Virus record (IMG/VR): IMGVR_UViG_3300020192_000009
Span: 1 to 64,000 of that record
Strand: one strand, 5' to 3'
DNA: 64,000 bases
Source of the DNA: a virus
The notes below the pieces were generated by a model that worked only from the letters and a program-made list of their open reading frames with translations, did no database searches and was not told where the DNA came from. This document shows, in pieces, positions 28,101 through 64,000 of the stretch. Position 1 is the first letter of the stretch; each line of letters starts with the position of its first letter. The position numbers were made by a program, and so were the translations under genes.

Positions 28101-28530
28101 CGCCAACGGCAGTAGCCCTAAAGCGGTCAAGCATTTCGCAAGGCATTTACCCGCACCCACGCACCGCCCAAAGGTTGTGCAATATCTTCGCGGCATTGCA
28201 ACCACATGGCGAAACGCAACTTGCGAAGATCCACGTTGGCTAGAGTGGACCGCGCCGCTGTTGGCTTTTTGTACAAATGCCAAAAAGCCGATTGTGTGGG
28301 AAGTGCTCACTGTGTGGTACGTGGCTACGTGGCCGAACTACCCGGCAGAGTTTCTACAGCATCAAATTGCGTATCTGTCTTTGACGGGTCGGTTACGCTA
28401 CGACGCAGTTACCACCAGTTGGCATGCAAGCAACGGCGCGAACGCGCTTGTTGTGCCTGCTAAAAATTATTCTGTGGATAGCTCATCTAGCTGCAACCCA
28501 CAGAACAATCACACGTTTCGACGTGAGTAG
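28045..28530 (+). CDS. Hypothetical protein, start uncertain
   Basis: 161 residues if the ATG at 28045 is used, which overlaps the end of the glycosyltransferase by 56 bp; no in-frame ATG follows, so a non-ATG start after 28100 may apply. The middle is Trp-rich and helical (WRNATCEDPRWLEWTAPLLA; IVWEVLTVWYVATWPNYPAE; FLQHQIAYLSLTGRLRYDA), which looks like real protein. The stop falls inside a tandem hairpin repeat. Confidence 0.45.
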   Translation: MYVQDFGNPARPFLVPPSSANGSSPKAVKHFARHLPAPTHRPKVVQYLRGIATTWRNATCEDPRWLEWTAPLLAFCTNAKKPIVWEVLTVWYVATWPNYPAEFLQHQIAYLSLTGRLRYDAVTTSWHASNGANALVVPAKNYSVDSSSSCNPQNNHTFRRE

Positions 28531-28578: not shown

Positions 28579-30750
28579 TTAACGCCACATGCTGAAAGTG
28601 CCGCTTAGCGCTTTACCGCTTGCGACAATAGGCAACAGCTTGCCGCTCTTCGGATCTTTGCGTAACAAAGGTTGCCCCTTTGCATTGCGTGCAAGTGCAT
28701 TGATCGGCACTGTGGTGTAAGCATTGCGCGCGTCTAGCGCCAACACCATCAACTTGCTGTCAACTTCACGTTTTGCTGCAGTAAGTGCCCACCCCATAAG
28801 TTTGCGAATGGTGTCTGTTGATTGCGCCCAGAAAGGCACCGGGGAGCTTAATTCGGTGTACACCGGCACTGTAGGCGCACCAGGGAACGCCGAAGATCCC
28901 TTGATAAACGGTTGCGCGATAATATTGAAAGCAGCTTGTCGCGTTAACGTTTGTTTTTGGTCAGATGCGGCGCGCGCAATTGCATACGCAATAGCTGCTT
29001 CCCAAGCATTGCGCGCTAGTGCCAACTTATCAGCGGGCACAATGGTTCGCACACTTGGGGCCTTCACCTTTGGCGCAGACTTTGATTTTGGCGCAGGCTT
29101 TGCCTTTGGTGCAGGTGGTGTGTACGAATTGACGGCTGTTGTGACTTTCTCGCGAAAGGCATCGTCAGGCATCTGCCAAAAGGACACGGCGGGGTTTGGT
29201 GCATCAAGCACAATGCCAGCGGCTTTCAAGACCGCCGCAGCTTTGTTGATTGCCGCTTGTCGCGATAATCCGGGCTCTGCAGCTTTTACGCGTGCAAGCG
29301 TTTCTTGAAATGCGCCTGCGACCAATTGGCGTTTCATTTCCATACTGGCCGTGGCCGTGTTGGCTTTCGTTGTCGCTTCGTTTGCGGCTACAACATTGCT
29401 TTGGACAGCCGCTTTCGCTTCTTCACGTTGTGCCACCGCTTGCGTCACAGCCTCTGTTGCGGCTTGCACGGTGGTAGCTTGTGCTGCCGCTGCTGTGGTC
29501 GCTGTTTGCTGTACTTGCTGCGCTTGTGCGGCACGCGCTTGTAATTGTTTGGCGTGTTGCGCTTGTAACGCAGCTTCGCGTTCAAGGCCGCGGCGTCGAG
29601 TCGCATTGGCTTCTTCACGGGCTGCGGTTGCAAGGCCCGTAGCTTGGGCAGCCGCAGCTTCAGCGGCTGCAATGGCAGCAGCAGCAGCCGATCCCGCATT
29701 GGTCGCAAGCGTTTCAGCTGCTATTTGCCGACGTTGCGCATCAGCGGCAGCACCGCTTGCAGCAGCTGCGCGCGCGTTGGCAGCATCTACCGATGCCGCA
29801 GCGGCCCGTGCTGCGCCTGCGGAAACATCGGCATCTTTACGCAATTTATCAATTGCAAAATCATCCGCGCGCGCTTTGCGTGCAATGAAGAATGCCGCCA
29901 ACCCAGCAAGGCTGGCAAGGCCGAGGCTCAATGCGACCTTTTTCTTTGGTGACACTGGCATACCAAGTTTGCTGCGTGTGGCGCGAGCGCGAGCGCCTTC
30001 GAGTCTCATGGGATATTTGTACACGTTGTCAACTCCTGCGGAAAAGCCCAAGTCTAAAATTTTCCAAGTGCCGTCGTCTGCAACGCCGACATTCTTGATA
30101 TGCAAATCGTTCGTGGGCACAAGGCCCGTGTCGGATTGTACCGTTTCAATGTTGTCACGAAACACTTCAAGCGCTTCGCGGCAAGCGTTATCGCCAACGC
30201 CTTTCTTATTCGTACAGCATGTTTCAGGTGCTGTGAGGTCACCGCGTTGAAAACGCCCCCATGCTTTACGGTCAAAACCGGTGGCGACCAAACAAGCTAA
30301 GGGTTTTTTCCAACGTGCGGCCAATGGTGCAAGGCGTTCAACTTCAACAGCGTACACAGTAGGAGGTGCATACCCTGTTGCGCCTTTCGGACGCCCTAAC
30401 CAGCGCGTTCGCGCCGGTTGCAATTCGTAAACGTCAATCATCTCGGGGATCACGTCATAGCTTTGACCCTGTTGCAAACTGGCAATGTCTGACACATCGG
30501 TTGTCAGCTTGACGACGGTCTTGGCCGTGGGCCCATCGTAAGCGCAGGCAAACGCACCACAACCGATAACCACGGGGGGCCCTTCGGGGAATAAGCGCGC
30601 TTGCTGGGTCGGTGAGAGGCACACAGAGTACTTGCCGCTAGTGGGCAACCATGCGCGTGATACGCCTTGCCGTAAGCACACTTCAGCGCCGGGTGGCGCC
30701 GCAGGGCCCCTGCCAAGGGTTTTCACACGCTTTAGTTTTGGGTAGGCCAC
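28579..30750 (-). CDS. Kinase-like domain fused to membrane span and alanine-rich coiled coil
   Basis: 723 residues. Residues 60-240 are protein-kinase-like: glycine loop GCGAFACAY (63-71), likely ATP Lys81 in VVKLTT, catalytic-loop-like NDLHIKN (Asp215, Asn220), and KILDLGFS with DLG in place of DFG (233-235). A membrane span (VALSLGLASLAGLAAFFIA) follows at 272-290. Residues about 300-480 are an Ala/Gln-rich coiled coil with few prolines. Two similar helical blocks end the protein, separated by a Pro/Lys linker. The same kinase-like domain is encoded alone at 34768-35478. A membrane-tethered virion or host-membrane signalling protein is possible; activity is unproven. Confidence 0.75.
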   Translation of the reverse strand: MAYPKLKRVKTLGRGPAAPPGAEVCLRQGVSRAWLPTSGKYSVCLSPTQQARLFPEGPPVVIGCGAFACAYDGPTAKTVVKLTTDVSDIASLQQGQSYDVIPEMIDVYELQPARTRWLGRPKGATGYAPPTVYAVEVERLAPLAARWKKPLACLVATGFDRKAWGRFQRGDLTAPETCCTNKKGVGDNACREALEVFRDNIETVQSDTGLVPTNDLHIKNVGVADDGTWKILDLGFSAGVDNVYKYPMRLEGARARATRSKLGMPVSPKKKVALSLGLASLAGLAAFFIARKARADDFAIDKLRKDADVSAGAARAAAASVDAANARAAAASGAAADAQRRQIAAETLATNAGSAAAAAIAAAEAAAAQATGLATAAREEANATRRRGLEREAALQAQHAKQLQARAAQAQQVQQTATTAAAAQATTVQAATEAVTQAVAQREEAKAAVQSNVVAANEATTKANTATASMEMKRQLVAGAFQETLARVKAAEPGLSRQAAINKAAAVLKAAGIVLDAPNPAVSFWQMPDDAFREKVTTAVNSYTPPAPKAKPAPKSKSAPKVKAPSVRTIVPADKLALARNAWEAAIAYAIARAASDQKQTLTRQAAFNIIAQPFIKGSSAFPGAPTVPVYTELSSPVPFWAQSTDTIRKLMGWALTAAKREVDSKLMVLALDARNAYTTVPINALARNAKGQPLLRKDPKSGKLLPIVASGKALSGTFSMWR

Positions 30751-32813: not shown

Positions 32814-33206
32814 TCAAACAGCGATGAAAGGCTTCAAGAAGGCCGCCAGGCCAGCACGCGACAGCGCGCCTTCGCTACGCGCAAGCTGTTTGCCATTCTT
32901 GTACAGCAACAAAGTAGGGATCGCCTGTACGTTGCACTTTGCAACTTGCTTTTCGCCATCGTCGAGATTGTATTTAAGACAAGCAATCGCGGCATAGGGT
33001 GGCGTTGCTAGCAACGCGTCTAGAACTTTGCCCATGCTTTTGCAGGGCGCGCACCATGGGGCCCAAAAGTCTACAAGGATGAGCGCGCCCGTAGGTGCGC
33101 CTGTCACTTGGGCTTTCCAAGTTTTGTCGGTAACAACGTTTTCAGCGTCGTGCGCTGTTGGTGCGAGTTTAGTGCTCGCGGCTTTTGCTTTAGGTTTGGT
33201 GGGCAT
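32814..33206 (-). CDS. Thioredoxin
   Basis: 130 residues. The active site is canonical: DFWAPWCAPCKSMGKVLD with Cys52 and Cys55, then ACLKYNLDDGEKQVAKCNVQ and the cis-proline AIPTLLLYKNGKQLARSEG. An extra 25-residue Lys/Ala-rich N-terminus precedes the fold. It reduces protein disulfides in the cytoplasm; in phages it can serve nucleotide reduction or the fold of Cys-containing virion proteins. A hairpin repeat begins 26 bp before the ATG, so the repeat array lies in its 5' region. Confidence 0.93.
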   Translation of the reverse strand: MPTKPKAKAASTKLAPTAHDAENVVTDKTWKAQVTGAPTGALILVDFWAPWCAPCKSMGKVLDALLATPPYAAIACLKYNLDDGEKQVAKCNVQAIPTLLLYKNGKQLARSEGALSRAGLAAFLKPFIAV

Positions 33207-33231
33207 TGCTTGAACTCGTAACTTTTATAAT

Positions 33232-33475
33232 GTTGCAATTTTGAAAGGCATTGCACAGCCTTTATCGCGAAATCGCAAGCGGCGTTCGCCAAGCCGATGC
33301 ACGGGTTGCAATTTTGAAAGGCATTGCACAGCCTTTGTCACAAGAAGGAGGGCCAAGAGAATCGAGTTGCAATTTTGAAAGGCATTGCACAGCCTTTGGC
33401 ACGCACAGGCCGTACGTCTTTCACACTATTTTCGTCTCGTTGCAATTTTGAAAGGCATTGCACAGCCTTTGTCAC
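33232..33475 (+). CRISPR. CRISPR-like repeat array 1 (four units)
   Basis: Four near-identical 37-bp repeats start at 33232, 33305, 33366 and 33439. On this strand each begins GTTGCAATTTTGAAAGGC and ends CAGCCTTT plus GTCAC, GGCAC or ATCGC. The arms AAAGGC and GCCTTT form a hairpin. Intervening unique segments are 36, 24 and 36 bp. The first (33269-33304) is visibly GC-rich. AT-rich sequence with TATAAT lies directly before the first unit and could be a leader. No cas gene is in the window. The alternative is a recombinase cassette array. Confidence 0.6.
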
Positions 33476-33726
33476 AACGCTAGGGCTGCAGCTGCGTACG
33501 CGTGCGCGAAATCGTAAAACCCAGTGAACCACGGGGCGCTGCTGTATTGCCCGAAGTCTGTCATGAAAGTGTCGCTGCCGATACAGTGTATAACATGACA
33601 ACTGTTGTGGATCCGCAAAAAGAAACGAAATAGCTCGGCTTGTGGTGCTGCTGTTGTGAGGAAAAACACACGTTGTGGTGGTAGCTGAAACAGTCGGTAG
33701 ATCGCTACGTCTGCAAGTGCATTCAT
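33472..33726 (-). CDS. Small hypothetical protein between two repeats
   Basis: 84 residues from ATG 33726, beginning 12 bp after a repeat (33739-33775, read on the minus strand), and its TGA stop lies inside the next repeat. Sequence ALADVAIYRLFQLPPQRVFF, then ELFRFFLRIHNSCHVIHCIG and SSAPWFTGFYDFAHAYAAAA: aromatic-rich, plausibly globular, unknown. The gene-between-repeats layout looks like a cassette. Confidence 0.45.
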   Translation of the reverse strand: MNALADVAIYRLFQLPPQRVFFLTTAAPQAELFRFFLRIHNSCHVIHCIGSDTFMTDFGQYSSAPWFTGFYDFAHAYAAAALAL

Positions 33727-33738
33727 GGCAGCATCCGT

Positions 33739-33775
33739 GTTGCAATTTTGTAAGGCATTGCACAGCCTTTGTCAC
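33739..33775 (+). repeat. Single array repeat, TTAC subtype
   Basis: One 37-bp unit 263 bp past array 1, same orientation, with GTAAGGC in place of GAAAGGC. The same variant is seen in several units of array 2 and in the last unit at the right window edge. Its GTCAC end supplies the TGA stop of the minus-strand gene at 33772-33969. Confidence 0.8.
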
Positions 33776-33969
33776 AAATATACCGACGCCGAACTCGTAA
33801 CTTTTTCAATGTTGCAATTTTGAGCTTGCAACTCAAGCGGCGCGCGGTCTTCTTGCAATGCCACAAATACAGCTGTAACGCCGCAAGCTTCAAACGCTGC
33901 AACGATTTCACAAGCTAACTTGTAATGCGCTTTGTCGGCTTGCGGCCAATACGTGATTGCAACATGCAT
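33772..33969 (-). CDS. Short protein with 3' end built from repeat sequence
   Basis: 65 residues. The first 45 (HVAITYWPQADKAHYKLACE, IVAAFEACGVTAVFVALQED) look like part of a Rossmann-type alpha/beta domain. The last 16 (QNCNIEKVTSSASVYL) are encoded by the leader/repeat copy, and the stop is in the full repeat, which suggests a gene truncated by a recombination event. It begins four bases after the dioxygenase-like gene stop on the same strand. Confidence 0.45.
   Translation of the reverse strand: MHVAITYWPQADKAHYKLACEIVAAFEACGVTAVFVALQEDRAPLELQAQNCNIEKVTSSASVYL
33791..33823 (+). repeat. Second copy of the array-1 leader with truncated repeat
   Basis: 33 bp match the sequence at 33212-33244 with two mismatches (GAACTCGTAACTTTT shared, then ATAAT or TCAAT, then GTTGCAATTTTGA). 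The repeat is cut after 13 bases and continues as GCTTGCAAC, forming a GTTGCAA/TTGCAAC inverted repeat. It makes up the 3' end of the gene at 33772-33969, so it looks like a rearrangement junction. Confidence 0.8.
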
Positions 33970-34767: not shown

Positions 34768-35478
34768 CTACAGCATCGCAAGATTGAGCTTGCGGCGTCT
34801 TTTACGAGAACGCGCCCCTTTGAGAACTGGCCGGTCTGCGACGTAATCCACGTTGTAACCAAGGTCGAGAATCTTCCACTTGCCTTTGGCGTTGCGCCCT
34901 AGGTTGGCGGCATGCCAGTCGAAGAACAACAGCTTACGTTCGCGAAACGCATCGCTTGTCTGTTGCACCATGGCCATTAGGCTGAGACAAGAAGACACCG
35001 TGTCAGCAACGGGTATGCGCGCAGCTGTCTTCAATGCGCGTACAATTTGCATATCACAACATTGCGCATGTACTTTTACAGCCGGGGTTCTACGGGCGCA
35101 TTTCAAACCGTCAGAAAGTGTTTCTGAAGCGGCTGTAGGTGTTAGCTTTTCGACGCGCATCGCCCAACGCTCGTCATTGCCTGCAATTTGCAGGGCACTA
35201 TACAGTGTCACAACACCGGGGATCCCCTGTGCGCCCATTGTGGTGTGCACGTCACCAGGATCGGTAGTCAACTTAATGACTTTGCCAGCCTCATCAGACT
35301 CGTAAACACAGGCATAACTGCCGCAACCGTAACGCTTGGGCTTTGTCATGCGCCGCCCGAACAACTTGACCCACTGGGTGTCTGTCAAGCAAGTTAGGCT
35401 GTACGAGGCTCCCGTGCGTAAGCAGCGGCGGCCAGCGTCATCAATGGTTACGGTGTAGTTTCGCGTGGGAGCGCTCAT
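34768..35478 (-). CDS. Stand-alone kinase-like protein
   Basis: 236 residues from ATG 35478, a short homologue of the kinase-like part of the 723-residue protein: YGCGSYACVY (50-59) matches IGCGAFACAY, VIKLTTDPGD matches VVKLTTDVSD, and GKWKILDLGY matches GTWKILDLGF. The catalytic loop reads FDWHAANLG (Asp187, Asn192); the metal motif is DLG (205-207). It ends in a basic tail (GARSRKRRRKLNL). A protein-kinase fold is likely. It may phosphorylate host or virion targets, or be a pseudokinase. Confidence 0.7.
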   Translation of the reverse strand: MSAPTRNYTVTIDDAGRRCLRTGASYSLTCLTDTQWVKLFGRRMTKPKRYGCGSYACVYESDEAGKVIKLTTDPGDVHTTMGAQGIPGVVTLYSALQIAGNDERWAMRVEKLTPTAASETLSDGLKCARRTPAVKVHAQCCDMQIVRALKTAARIPVADTVSSCLSLMAMVQQTSDAFRERKLLFFDWHAANLGRNAKGKWKILDLGYNVDYVADRPVLKGARSRKRRRKLNLAML

Positions 35479-35503
35479 CAGTAAACCAGTGTACGCCCAC
35501 GTC

Positions 35504-35767
35504 TTAGGGCTTGTCGAACACGCCTGCCATGCGTGATCTGAATTGCTTGTTGGCTTCCGCCCAGCCCGCGGCCCGGCCTTCGTAGTAGCCCGCATCAAAG
35601 TCTAGGGGAATCGCGCAGGCGATTCGTAGATGATTGCGCAGCCATTCGGTTAACGCGGCTTTACCGCCGCAACGCTCATGGGCCTGGGCAAGCAATTCGT
35701 TGGGCACCCGTAACGCTATCGGTGTGGAATCCCGAACATTGTACAAACCGCCTTTAGGTCGCGCCAT
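35504..35767 (-). CDS. Ribbon-helix-helix-like DNA-binding protein
   Basis: 87 residues from ATG 35767. DSTPIALRVPNELLAQAHER followed by KAALTEWLRNHLR matches a strand-helix-helix layout of CopG/Arc-type repressors. A C-terminal segment follows (AGYYEGRAAGWAEANKQFRS). It probably controls the nearby operon or the divergent recombinase gene, whose start lies 224 bp away across a hairpin-bearing region. Confidence 0.65.
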   Translation of the reverse strand: MARPKGGLYNVRDSTPIALRVPNELLAQAHERCGGKAALTEWLRNHLRIACAIPLDFDAGYYEGRAAGWAEANKQFRSRMAGVFDKP

Positions 35768-35990: not shown

Positions 35991-36707
35991 GTGGCGCATA
36001 AAGATGTCGATTCCGAAGCGGTCTATACCGTGCAAGAGATCCAACAGGTTTTGCGTACGGCACGCACTATAGGCACGCTTGCTTTCACATTGACAGCATG
36101 GTGCTACGAATTTGGCGCACGCACCGCAGAGCCGGGCCAACAGTTGTTGCGTGACGTGGACTTGCCGAACAATCGCGCACGGCCTACGCACCTCAAAGGT
36201 GGTGCTAGCAAGGCCTGGCAGTTCCTGATGCCCAATTGCCAAGCAGCCTTACCCCTGTGGCTTGCAGAACGCGAAACGCATATCAGCCAACCCACCCAAG
36301 CGCTTTATCTGTTTCCGGCACGCAAGCCAGGCAAGTGCCTTACTTGTGAAGGGACCGGCCAACGCGCAAAGCAAATGCGCGATGGTGAACGGCGCTTCAA
36401 GGGCCCACGTGTGCCTTGCCATCATTGCGCGGCTACGGGCAAACGATGGGGCATGGACCGCCGCGAAGTGTACGCAATCGTTGCGCCCGTGTTACGCGCA
36501 GCGGGTATGCCAAAGGGCCGCCAGCATCCACACGTTCTGCGCCACAGTGTGATCACACATATGCTTGACGCAGGCGTGGCTCCCAAAGTAATTCAAGAAC
36601 GTGTAGGGCATCGCAGTCTGCAAACGACACTCGACTATGTGAAAGCGACCGATGCGGGTCGTGCTGAAGTCATGGGCAAAATGAATGCCCTATTCGCAAA
36701 GCAATAA
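35991..36707 (+). CDS. Tyrosine recombinase with inserted zinc-knuckle, no N-terminal arm
   Basis: 238 residues from GTG 35991. The catalytic set is complete: Arg44 in FGARTAE, Lys69 in HLKGG, His181 and Arg184 in HPHVLRHS, His207 in VGHRSLQ, Tyr216 in TLDYVK. Two CxxC pairs are inserted between Lys and the His-x-x-Arg box: CLTCEGTGQ (116/119) and CHHCAATG (143/146), like DnaJ-type zinc knuckles. The usual SAM-like DNA-binding N-domain is absent, so the finger may replace it. It cuts and rejoins DNA via phosphotyrosine. Array 2 starts 90 bp downstream. Confidence 0.9.
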   Translation: MAHKDVDSEAVYTVQEIQQVLRTARTIGTLAFTLTAWCYEFGARTAEPGQQLLRDVDLPNNRARPTHLKGGASKAWQFLMPNCQAALPLWLAERETHISQPTQALYLFPARKPGKCLTCEGTGQRAKQMRDGERRFKGPRVPCHHCAATGKRWGMDRREVYAIVAPVLRAAGMPKGRQHPHVLRHSVITHMLDAGVAPKVIQERVGHRSLQTTLDYVKATDAGRAEVMGKMNALFAKQ

Positions 36708-36732
36708 CAACAACAACAACAACAACAACAAA
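36706..36732 (+). repeat. AAC microsatellite
   Basis: About eight AAC trinucleotides directly after the recombinase stop codon, before the repeat array. Prone to slippage. Confidence 0.9.
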
Positions 36733-36795: not shown

Positions 36796-37549
36796 GCCGC
36801 AAAGGCTGTGCAATGCCTTTCAAAATTGCAACAGCGCGCAGCCTTGCGTGCCAAAGGCTGTGCAATGCCTTACAAATTGCAACTGCGCGTATATCTTCAC
36901 TGCGCAACAAAGGCCGTGCAATGCCTTTCAAAATTGCAACTTCGCACGCGCAGTCTGTGCATGGCCGGTGGCAAAGGCTGTGCAATGCCTTACAAAATTG
37001 CAACCATGGGGAAAGGCCAGCGCGCGATCTGCTGTGTGACAAAGGCCGTGCAATGCCCTACAAAATTGCAACGTGCGCGTGGTGTTGACCGCGCTACCGC
37101 AGCTTATGCTGTAACAAAGGCTGTGCAATGCCTTTCAAAATTGCAACTTGGACCCGCGGGCGTGGCGCCTGCTGGGCCTGTGACAAAGGCTGCGCAATGC
37201 CTTTCAAAATTGCAACGGATCACCAGCTACCTCTACACCAACGGGTGCGCCCGTGACAAAGGCCGTGCAATGCCTTTCAAAATTGCAACGCGAACTGCGT
37301 TCGCGCCTTGGCGCCAAAGAGGATAGCGTGACAAAGGCTGTGCAATGCCTTTCAAAATTGCAACCGGCATACCACGTCGGCCGCCGCCTCCGGTTTAAGG
37401 GTGACAAAGGCCGTGCAATGCCTTTCAAAATTGCAACGCGCAAGCATAAGCTGCGCCTCTACGGTCAACACTACGTGACAAAGGCCGTGCAATGCCTTAC
37501 AAAATTGCAAGACGAACGGGCAATATCCAATGTCTTTCAAAATTGTAAC
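36796..37549 (-). CRISPR. CRISPR-like repeat array 2 (11 units plus one decayed)
   Basis: On the + strand, hairpin cores (AAAGGC-Y-GTGCAAT-GCCTT, then CAAAATTGCAAC) begin at 36801, 36853, 36909, 36973, 37041, 37116, 37185, 37258, 37333, 37406 and 37480; a decayed copy abuts the last at 37513-37549. From the fifth on they carry a 5' GTGAC or GTAAC, giving 37 bp. Start-to-start distances are 52, 56, 64, 68, 75, 69, 73, 75, 73 and 74. Later unique segments are about 32-38 bp and several are GC-rich. Orientation is opposite to array 1. Units end in CTTTC or CTTAC in mixed order. No cas genes are visible. Confidence 0.6.
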
Positions 37550-62976: not shown

Positions 62977-63282
62977 ATGGCCGCCCGCAAACCCCCAGCA
63001 ACAACTGCATTCGATAACGACGACACGCCAACGCTTGTCGGGCCCCCCATAGGCCACAGTGCAAACCGGGAAATGCTGGCAATCATTGGCAATTACTCGC
63101 TCGAAGCCAAAGCCCATGGTGATAAACTGCAAGGGCTTTATGAAAGCCTACGCATGTTTGAGCGCCCTGTAGCGGGCGCATGGGGCGAGCGTCTATTAGA
63201 AGAGCAAACGCGCCATCACAATGCCAATACGGGCAACCTACGACAGCTTGAACAAGTCGTTGGCCGCCTGGCAGTAGGCTAG
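62977..63282 (+). CDS. Small helical protein
   Basis: 101 residues from ATG 62977. Basic start (MAARKPPATTAFDNDDTPTL), helices (REMLAIIGNYSLEAKAHGDK; LLEEQTRHHNANTGNLRQLE). Convergent with the RRM gene by 4 bp. Unknown. Confidence 0.5.
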   Translation: MAARKPPATTAFDNDDTPTLVGPPIGHSANREMLAIIGNYSLEAKAHGDKLQGLYESLRMFERPVAGAWGERLLEEQTRHHNANTGNLRQLEQVVGRLAVG

Positions 63283-63896
63283 CCGTCGCGGCGCCCGCCA
63301 CCTTTAAAAGGTGTATCGTCGCGGTGCCGAAACACACGAGGCGCTTTTTCAACAGGTACACGGGCCCGCGTATCCGCGCCTGCGACGTAAACAGCGCTTA
63401 CCTTGTAAGGCCGCACAACAGACGCACCGGCATCGGCAGGGGCGCCGCTTACCGGGGGTTTACGGTCTTCGGCCCAAATATCACGAGCTTTGGACATTTT
63501 TGAGAACTTAGCGCCAGGAGGCGATCCCGCGGTTGGCCGCGCTTTAGACACTTTGCCTTTGCGGGCAGCGCGCGCATTCGCAGCCCGCTTTACTTCACGT
63601 CGAGAGCCCACCGCTGTTTGACTTTCGGCAAGTTCAGCGCGCAATGTCCGACCCGCGACAGCTTGGTTTTCGATGGCCTTCACGGCTTCAACAGGACTGC
63701 CGGTCACCTCAACAAAGCCGAACCCGCGAGAAATCCCGGTTGCGCGTTCACGCATGATTTTGGGGTTGATTGCAACAACCCCCATGGATAACAACGCTGC
63801 CAGCAACGTTCGTTCGTCAAAGGTTTGGGGCACATTGCCAATGAACAGCCGGGCGGGTGGCTGCTGTGCGGGTTTGCGCTGTGGTTTTGGAAGCAT
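63279..63896 (-). CDS. RRM-type RNA-binding protein
   Basis: 205 residues from ATG 63896. An RRM occupies residues about 16-90: RNP2 LFIGNV (17-22) and RNP1 RGFGFVEV (57-64), typical of bacterial glycine-rich RNA-binding proteins. The remaining 110 residues are a basic, disordered tail (SRREVKRAANARAARKGKVS; AGADTRARVPVEKAPRVFRH). Expected to bind single-stranded RNA or DNA. The third repeat array begins 25 bp before its ATG, so an RNA-binding protein lies next to repeats. Confidence 0.85.
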   Translation of the reverse strand: MLPKPQRKPAQQPPARLFIGNVPQTFDERTLLAALLSMGVVAINPKIMRERATGISRGFGFVEVTGSPVEAVKAIENQAVAGRTLRAELAESQTAVGSRREVKRAANARAARKGKVSKARPTAGSPPGAKFSKMSKARDIWAEDRKPPVSGAPADAGASVVRPYKVSAVYVAGADTRARVPVEKAPRVFRHRDDTPFKGGGRRDG

Positions 63897-63920: not shown

Positions 63921-64000
63921 GTTGCAATTTTAAAGGCATTGCAGAACCTTTTGGCATCGCTACGATCATCGTCAACATTGCAATTTTGTAAGGCATTGCA
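63921..64000 (+). repeat. Start of repeat array 3, cut by window edge
   Basis: A degenerate repeat begins at 63921 (GTTGCAATTTTAAAGGCATT, then AACCTTT in place of AGCCTTT), and a second begins about 63977 (ATTGCAATTTTGTAAGGCAT, then TGCA) and runs out of the window. Start-to-start distance is about 56 bp. Same strand orientation as array 1. The array must continue to the right. Confidence 0.75.

Follow-up and report, generated by a model that had tools for sequence, protein, structure and literature searches.

Dispersed arrays of a 37-nt repeat with a predicted pseudoknot fold in a virus genome, and their possible functions

Two arrays of a short repeat, lying on opposite strands and facing each other across a 3-kb interval that holds a tyrosine recombinase gene, raise the question of whether the DNA between them can be inverted, or whether the repeats have a function to which their opposite orientation is incidental. 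The window, which is the whole stretch of DNA analysed here, corresponds to bases 1-64000 of a 98,503-bp IMG/VR virus record, and the arrays have been followed through the entire record. In this report, we describe the distribution of the repeat and its orientation relative to the neighbouring genes, the local duplication seen in one array, and the predicted structure of the repeat unit. We then weigh the readings that these features allow, among which we tentatively favour an RNA-level decoy or antitoxin-like array, a possibility that we would not yet call probable.

The record carries phage-type replication genes, including those for DNA polymerase A, Dda-like and SNF2-type helicases, a Sak4-like ATPase, an exonuclease and a resolvase, as well as genes of nucleotide metabolism. 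No capsid or terminase family is among the matches listed for its ~105 proteins, and the structural genes of the virus may be very divergent. Searches of IMG/VR with four proteins (the kinase-like proteins, the Dda-like helicase and the SNF2-type helicase) returned no relatives. The 37-nt repeat itself was not found in IMG/VR, INPHARED phages or plasmid collections, nor in 84,980 GTDB species genomes; relaxed repeat patterns yielded only isolated single matches in the collections, without arrays. On the scale of the whole record, divergent transcription switches occur at ~35.9 kb, near arrays 1 and 2, and at ~85.4 kb, near array 4, almost exactly half the record apart, and the cumulative GC skew peaks broadly at ~28-47 kb and is lowest at ~82-88 kb; the spacing of the switches and the skew possibly mark a terminus and an origin, if the genome is circular.

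Distribution and orientation of the repeat

Arrays 1 and 2 belong to one repeat family on opposite strands, as the preliminary description had stated, with the numbers of units given below. That description had dealt with these two arrays only, whereas the 98.5-kb record contains 50 strong copies of the 37-nt unit, arranged in five clusters and one single copy, which are listed here with their transcript sense.

33232-33775, minus: array 1, five units (in transcript order 33739-33775, 33439-33475, 33366-33402, 33305-33341 and 33232-33268)
36796-37511, plus: array 2, eleven units
63.92-64.07 kb, minus: array 3, three units (63921-64000 in the window, continuing to 64066 in the record)
66.28 kb of the record, minus: single unit
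87.01-87.65 kb of the record, plus: array 4, eleven units
92.07-93.20 kb of the record, minus: array 5, the largest, nineteen units

Within the window, a 20-bp core of the unit was matched 17 times with at most three mismatches, against 0.04 matches expected by chance. The 50 copies align at 93% mean column identity, their variation being mostly restricted to the first four bases and to columns 12 and 25-27, and the variants are intermixed along the arrays without forming runs. Decayed copies beyond the 50 strong ones were obtained from a covariance model.

33811-33832, minus: decayed sixth unit of array 1 (E = 0.006)
87.93 kb of the record: decayed copy (E = 4e-5)
37517-37549, plus: degenerate unit at the 3' end of array 2, 12 nt ahead of the start of the DUF6283 gene (E = 0.17, weak)
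28165-28202, plus: possible decayed unit within a 161-aa ORF (E = 0.07, weak)
64424: weak decayed copy

In the sense GTGACAAAGGCTGTGCAATGCCTTTCAAAATTGCAAC, arrays 1-4 and the single unit at 66.3 kb read in the same direction as the ORFs on both of their flanks, and array 5, which lies between convergent genes, has the direction of its right-hand neighbour. All five placements with unambiguous neighbours agree with this rule, for which the chance probability is 1 in 32 over few independent loci; the weak decayed copy at 64424 is opposite to it. That the repeats point along transcription, its direction being taken from the ORFs, is thus suggestive. Because transcription diverges in the stretch that separates arrays 1 and 2, no inversion is needed for them to be opposite-facing, and such an arrangement of two arrays is not in itself evidence of flipped DNA. 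An inversion across 33.2-37.5 kb would leave the orientation rule intact and is therefore still conceivable on the basis of one sequence.

The genes that follow the arrays encode thioredoxin, a DUF6283 protein, an RRM protein and a small unknown ORF. Those of further interest outside array 1 are the following.

35991-36707, plus: tyrosine recombinase of 238 aa, upstream of array 2
34768-35598, minus: stand-alone kinase-like protein, a paralogue of the N-terminal part of the protein at 28579-30750
63279-63896: RRM-domain protein after array 3, with RNP1 and RNP2 motifs

The recombinase starts straight with its catalytic domain, in which a zinc-finger-like insertion of the DnaJ type (CxxCxGxG) precedes the HxxR box, and it appears on inspection of its sequence to keep a complete catalytic set. 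Among its solved relatives, XerC-like proteins and the integron integrase IntI4 come nearest in sequence. Ten CAA triplets run through 36702-36731 after its stop codon. The two kinase-like proteins have a common domain with 30% identity, the larger one being fused to a long alanine-rich coiled region. The start codon of the RRM protein lies 24 nt past array 3, and this protein, as predicted from its motifs, is unusual for a phage-like virus and a natural candidate partner of the repeats.

The duplicated 33-mer and the ORFs of array 1

Array 1 contains, or is bordered by, the features listed here, on some of which a proposed rearrangement through the repeats had been based.

33212-33244, minus: first copy of a 33-mer, comprising the end of the last unit and the 20 nt up to the thioredoxin start codon
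33791-33823, minus: second copy of the 33-mer, comprising the end of the decayed unit and 20 nt from the start of the 39-nt filler behind it
33472-33726, minus: ORF of 84 aa, filling a 267-nt gap between two units
33772-33969, minus: ORF of 65 aa upstream of array 1, with the decayed unit inside its 3' end
32814-33206, minus: thioredoxin gene directly after array 1 (PF00085, E = 4e-21), start codon at 33206

The recurrence of the 33-bp sequence was confirmed at 33212 and 33791, the copies matching at 31 of 33 positions (two mismatches); no other occurrence is found in the 98.5-kb record, and the pair constitutes a direct repeat on both sides of a 579-bp segment. It had been described as leader-like and as preceding the first unit, but in the transcript sense it flanks the array behind its last unit. 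The second copy, said to be a cut repeat fused to the end of a gene, does fall within the 3'-terminal part of the 65-aa ORF, an ORF that terminates at the TGA in the GTGA of the first intact unit, but the repeat is rather a decayed sixth unit followed by its 39-nt filler, whose length is normal for the fillers here. Likewise, the supposed inserted gene exists as the 84-aa ORF in the 267-nt gap, its stop codon being the TGA of the next unit's GTGA, but its coding signal is only marginal, and it is without a Pfam match.

When the flanks are joined without the 579-bp segment, the 65-aa ORF and the thioredoxin gene overlap by 17 nt. Such an overlap is within the range for neighbouring ORFs in this record, which agrees with the segment having been inserted or duplicated at a later time. 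Only two groups of related fillers exist in the genome, namely the 33-mer pair of array 1 and three fillers of array 5, and the so-called leader, since it is a copied filler, is one sign of local duplication through the repeats. The pattern of array 1 would be accounted for by a unit end that was copied locally, along with the 20 nt behind it, plus a segment bearing the 84-aa ORF. The proposal of rearrangement is therefore supported as far as local duplication is concerned, by the 33-mer around the 579 bp and the filler copies, but not with regard to inversion or excision between 33.2 and 37.5 kb.

Structure of the unit and properties of the fillers

In the transcript sense, the unit reads 5'-GUGACAAAGGCUGUGCAAUGCCUUUCAAAAUUGCAAC (37 nt) and contains two interlocking 6-bp inverted repeats, AAAGGC..GCCTTT and TGCAAT..ATTGCA, in the order of an H-type pseudoknot. 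Each unit would fold into stem 1 (AAAGGC/GCCUUU), a 2-nt loop, stem 2 (UGCAAU/AUUGCA) and an A-rich last loop of 3-4 nt. Interlocking stems as good as these were found in 59 of 20,000 dinucleotide shuffles, in 8 of 20,000 mononucleotide shuffles and in 82 of 20,000 random 37-mers of the genome, and stacking contributes about -10.6 and -9.7 kcal/mol to the two stems, a figure that does not include the cost of the loops. Over all copies, 94% of the pair counts are standard pairs; no compensatory base changes occur in the stems among the copies, covariation being at the level of shuffles, and the simple hairpin of the unit is no more stable than those of shuffles. The variable core columns (12 and 25-27) coincide with predicted loops or with the terminal pair of stem 1, and a 1-nt length change is tolerated in the last loop, which would be easier to reconcile with an RNA loop than with a rigid dimer site. 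Loops of 2 and 3-4 nt presumably match the groove geometry of a pseudoknot on the transcript-sense strand, and under the same assumption the antisense RNA would have to cross a 6-bp stem with a last loop of 2 nt. Pairing within the unit is thus possible and non-random, and a pseudoknot is predicted from it; the inverted repeats could also serve a DNA-binding protein.

The statistics of the fillers refer to 43 of them, without the 267-nt filler that holds the 84-aa ORF. They range from 4 to 39 nt (sd 10.3), and 16 are found in the top six lengths (P = 0.001 versus uniform), with none longer; the unit periods accumulate at 71-76, the latter being the maximum. Apart from the two related groups mentioned above, the fillers are mutually unrelated; they are GC-richer than intergenic DNA, and none is common to two arrays. 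In phage records, the fillers of arrays 1, 2 and 5 gave only one weak match at chance level (E = 3), and those of array 5 gave none in plasmids.

Several other explanations of fillers or units were tried and rejected. As pieces of the virus's own genome, the fillers have longest self-matches equal to those of shuffles, and as hairpins they are unconvincing (mean z -0.33). Mini-ORFs reading from the SD-like AAAGG of the unit and an ATG would leave a frame preference, whereas the periods have no clear one (mod 3 counts 13/18/12). Intrinsic terminators were discarded, there being no T-run past the hairpin in either direction and terminator-like sites being rarer than in shuffles, as were Rfam families, none of which reached the gathering threshold, with only chance-level matches below it. 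Promoter-like sites are not in excess near the arrays. A strong minus-strand terminator-like hairpin (12 pairs and a T-run) is located at 87692-87719 of the record, just beyond the end of array 4, as if blocking antisense reading of that array.

Competing readings and comparison with known systems

In the tentatively favoured reading, the arrays would be non-coding, transcribed strings of 37-nt structured RNA units, produced together with the neighbouring genes from several operons, and would titrate or recruit an RNA-binding partner. Their transcription, their pseudoknot fold and any such partner are what we infer from the sequence. Selection would keep the unit and treat the fillers as disposable; that the unit is kept at 93% mean identity between unrelated fillers was counted in favour of a selected unit. 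One candidate partner is a ribonuclease toxin of the host that belongs to a type III toxin-antitoxin system, and another is the virus's own RRM protein, whose gene comes after array 3. The more specific proposal that ~50 pseudoknots with throw-away fillers act in trans as a sponge, soaking up a defence RNase of the host or some other factor that binds RNA, is doubtful. An RNA decoy leaves the unrelated fillers and their length limit without explanation.

The main rival of the RNA reading is that the units are double-stranded DNA binding sites, forming a multi-site operator or a replication-origin or partition array to which a virus protein binds, in the manner of baculovirus homologous regions or of the SPbeta repeated element with its recombinase-like repressor MrpR; the tyrosine recombinase beside array 2 is a protein that could bind them. 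We regard this as rather unlikely, but not negligible, since the inverted half-sites TGCAAT/ATTGCA are nearly invariant in the 50 copies, the dispersal over several clusters and the periods of ~70 bp recall homologous regions, the compensatory changes that would demand RNA are absent, and a recombinase-fold repressor, MrpR, is known to bind dispersed phage repeats. On the other hand, the distance between the half-sites varies by 1 bp, helical phasing of the units is not clear, orientation along transcription is needless for symmetric sites, and the recombinase, with its apparently complete catalytic set, differs from MrpR. A captured, decaying CRISPR array, or repeat mimics acting as a Racr-like RNA anti-CRISPR decoy with spacers free to shrink, would give the best account of the unrelated fillers, as their mutual unrelatedness and GC-richness are expected of acquired spacers. 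The 37-nt repeat with its central hairpin, its 3' end ATTGCAAC, which we take to resemble many crRNA handles, the concentration of the periods at 71-76 with none above 76, and the fact that CRISPR-blocking solitary repeats on viruses are already known all speak for this reading as well. It is nevertheless improbable, given spacer lengths of 4-39 nt (sd 10.3), repeat variants that are mixed rather than in runs, and conserved units with non-conserved fillers, unlike an active CRISPR array; moreover, no Cas1 was found in the virus record, the repeat was not found in the species genomes, spacer matches in phages or plasmids do not exceed chance for the arrays searched, and known Racrs are solitary while mini-arrays have one or two spacers.

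The least supported reading, and in our judgement a very improbable one, returns to the recombinase and treats the units as its recombination sites, bounding an invertible 3-kb segment or forming integron-like cassette arrays. The recombinase gene adjoins array 2, the units of arrays 1 and 2 are mutually inverted with perfectly complementary arms of up to 38 bp, the 33-bp sequence is directly duplicated around 579 bp in array 1, and fillers have been duplicated within arrays. However, the direction of transcription already accounts for the opposite orientation, three further clusters lie at least 27 kb from the recombinase gene, and no two arrays share a filler, although fillers ought to be exchanged if arrays recombined with each other; the length of the unit is variable at its centre, and the cassettes would be 4-39 nt without a gene. 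Whichever of the RNA and DNA readings applies, it corrects the idea that the two arrays bound an invertible segment. Flanking inverted repeats and a nearby recombinase, by which such a segment is recognised, are both present here, but the same repeats also occur elsewhere in the record.

Among known elements, baculovirus homologous regions (hrs), whose palindromic repeats act as replication origins and enhancers, are similar in layout, the feature compared here, in having several dispersed arrays of an imperfectly palindromic ~30-bp unit with intervening DNA; they differ in that the units here follow the transcription direction and accompany phage-type replication genes. If the repeats are DNA sites, a virus with such genes would carry a multi-cluster element resembling hrs. 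The SPbeta repeated element (SPBRE) is likewise one motif family repeated across the genome of a phage that also encodes a recombinase-fold protein, but SPBRE is a 15-bp promoter site and is not organised in arrays, and MrpR is without the catalytic residues that the present recombinase appears to keep. CRISPR arrays have spacers of near-constant length and nearby cas genes or a repeat matched in a host array, in contrast to the irregular spacers and the lack of both Cas1 and a GTDB match described here. Racrs and viral CRISPR mini-arrays are comparable as virus-borne, Cas-less repeats with a hairpin and a ATTGNAAC-like end, but the present arrays have many copies, irregular spacer lengths and mixed variants, and no host repeat was found for them.

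The closest working precedent, by analogy, is phage phiTE, in which expanded intergenic 36-nt pseudo-ToxI repeats neutralise a type III toxin (PMC3475682), the type III antitoxins being repeated H-type pseudoknots (PMC5086642). As in ToxI and the phiTE pseudo-ToxI, units of ~36 nt are repeated between genes of a phage with small length variation in one base run, and a potential H-type pseudoknot, as in ToxI, has a first hairpin loop of 8 nt with CCUUU and an A-rich sequence after it. Type III antitoxin repeats are contiguous, however, whereas the units here are split by unrelated fillers of 4-39 nt, and in contrast to phiTE there are ~50 units in several clusters, with no significant sequence in common with phiTE. 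Nor was the type III layout of a Rho-independent terminator and then a ToxN-like RNase gene found downstream of the arrays; a search of the record for a ToxN-like gene was empty, its own control being silent too. Because the units are non-contiguous and no toxin follows, membership in type III is not claimed. If the arrays do act as RNA, a virus without close relatives in the collections searched would possess an RNA decoy or regulator in heavily amplified form, and would join the few viruses known to counter defence by repeated small RNAs; as a sponge, the arrays would have far more copies and another layout than the pseudo-ToxI and Racr cases.
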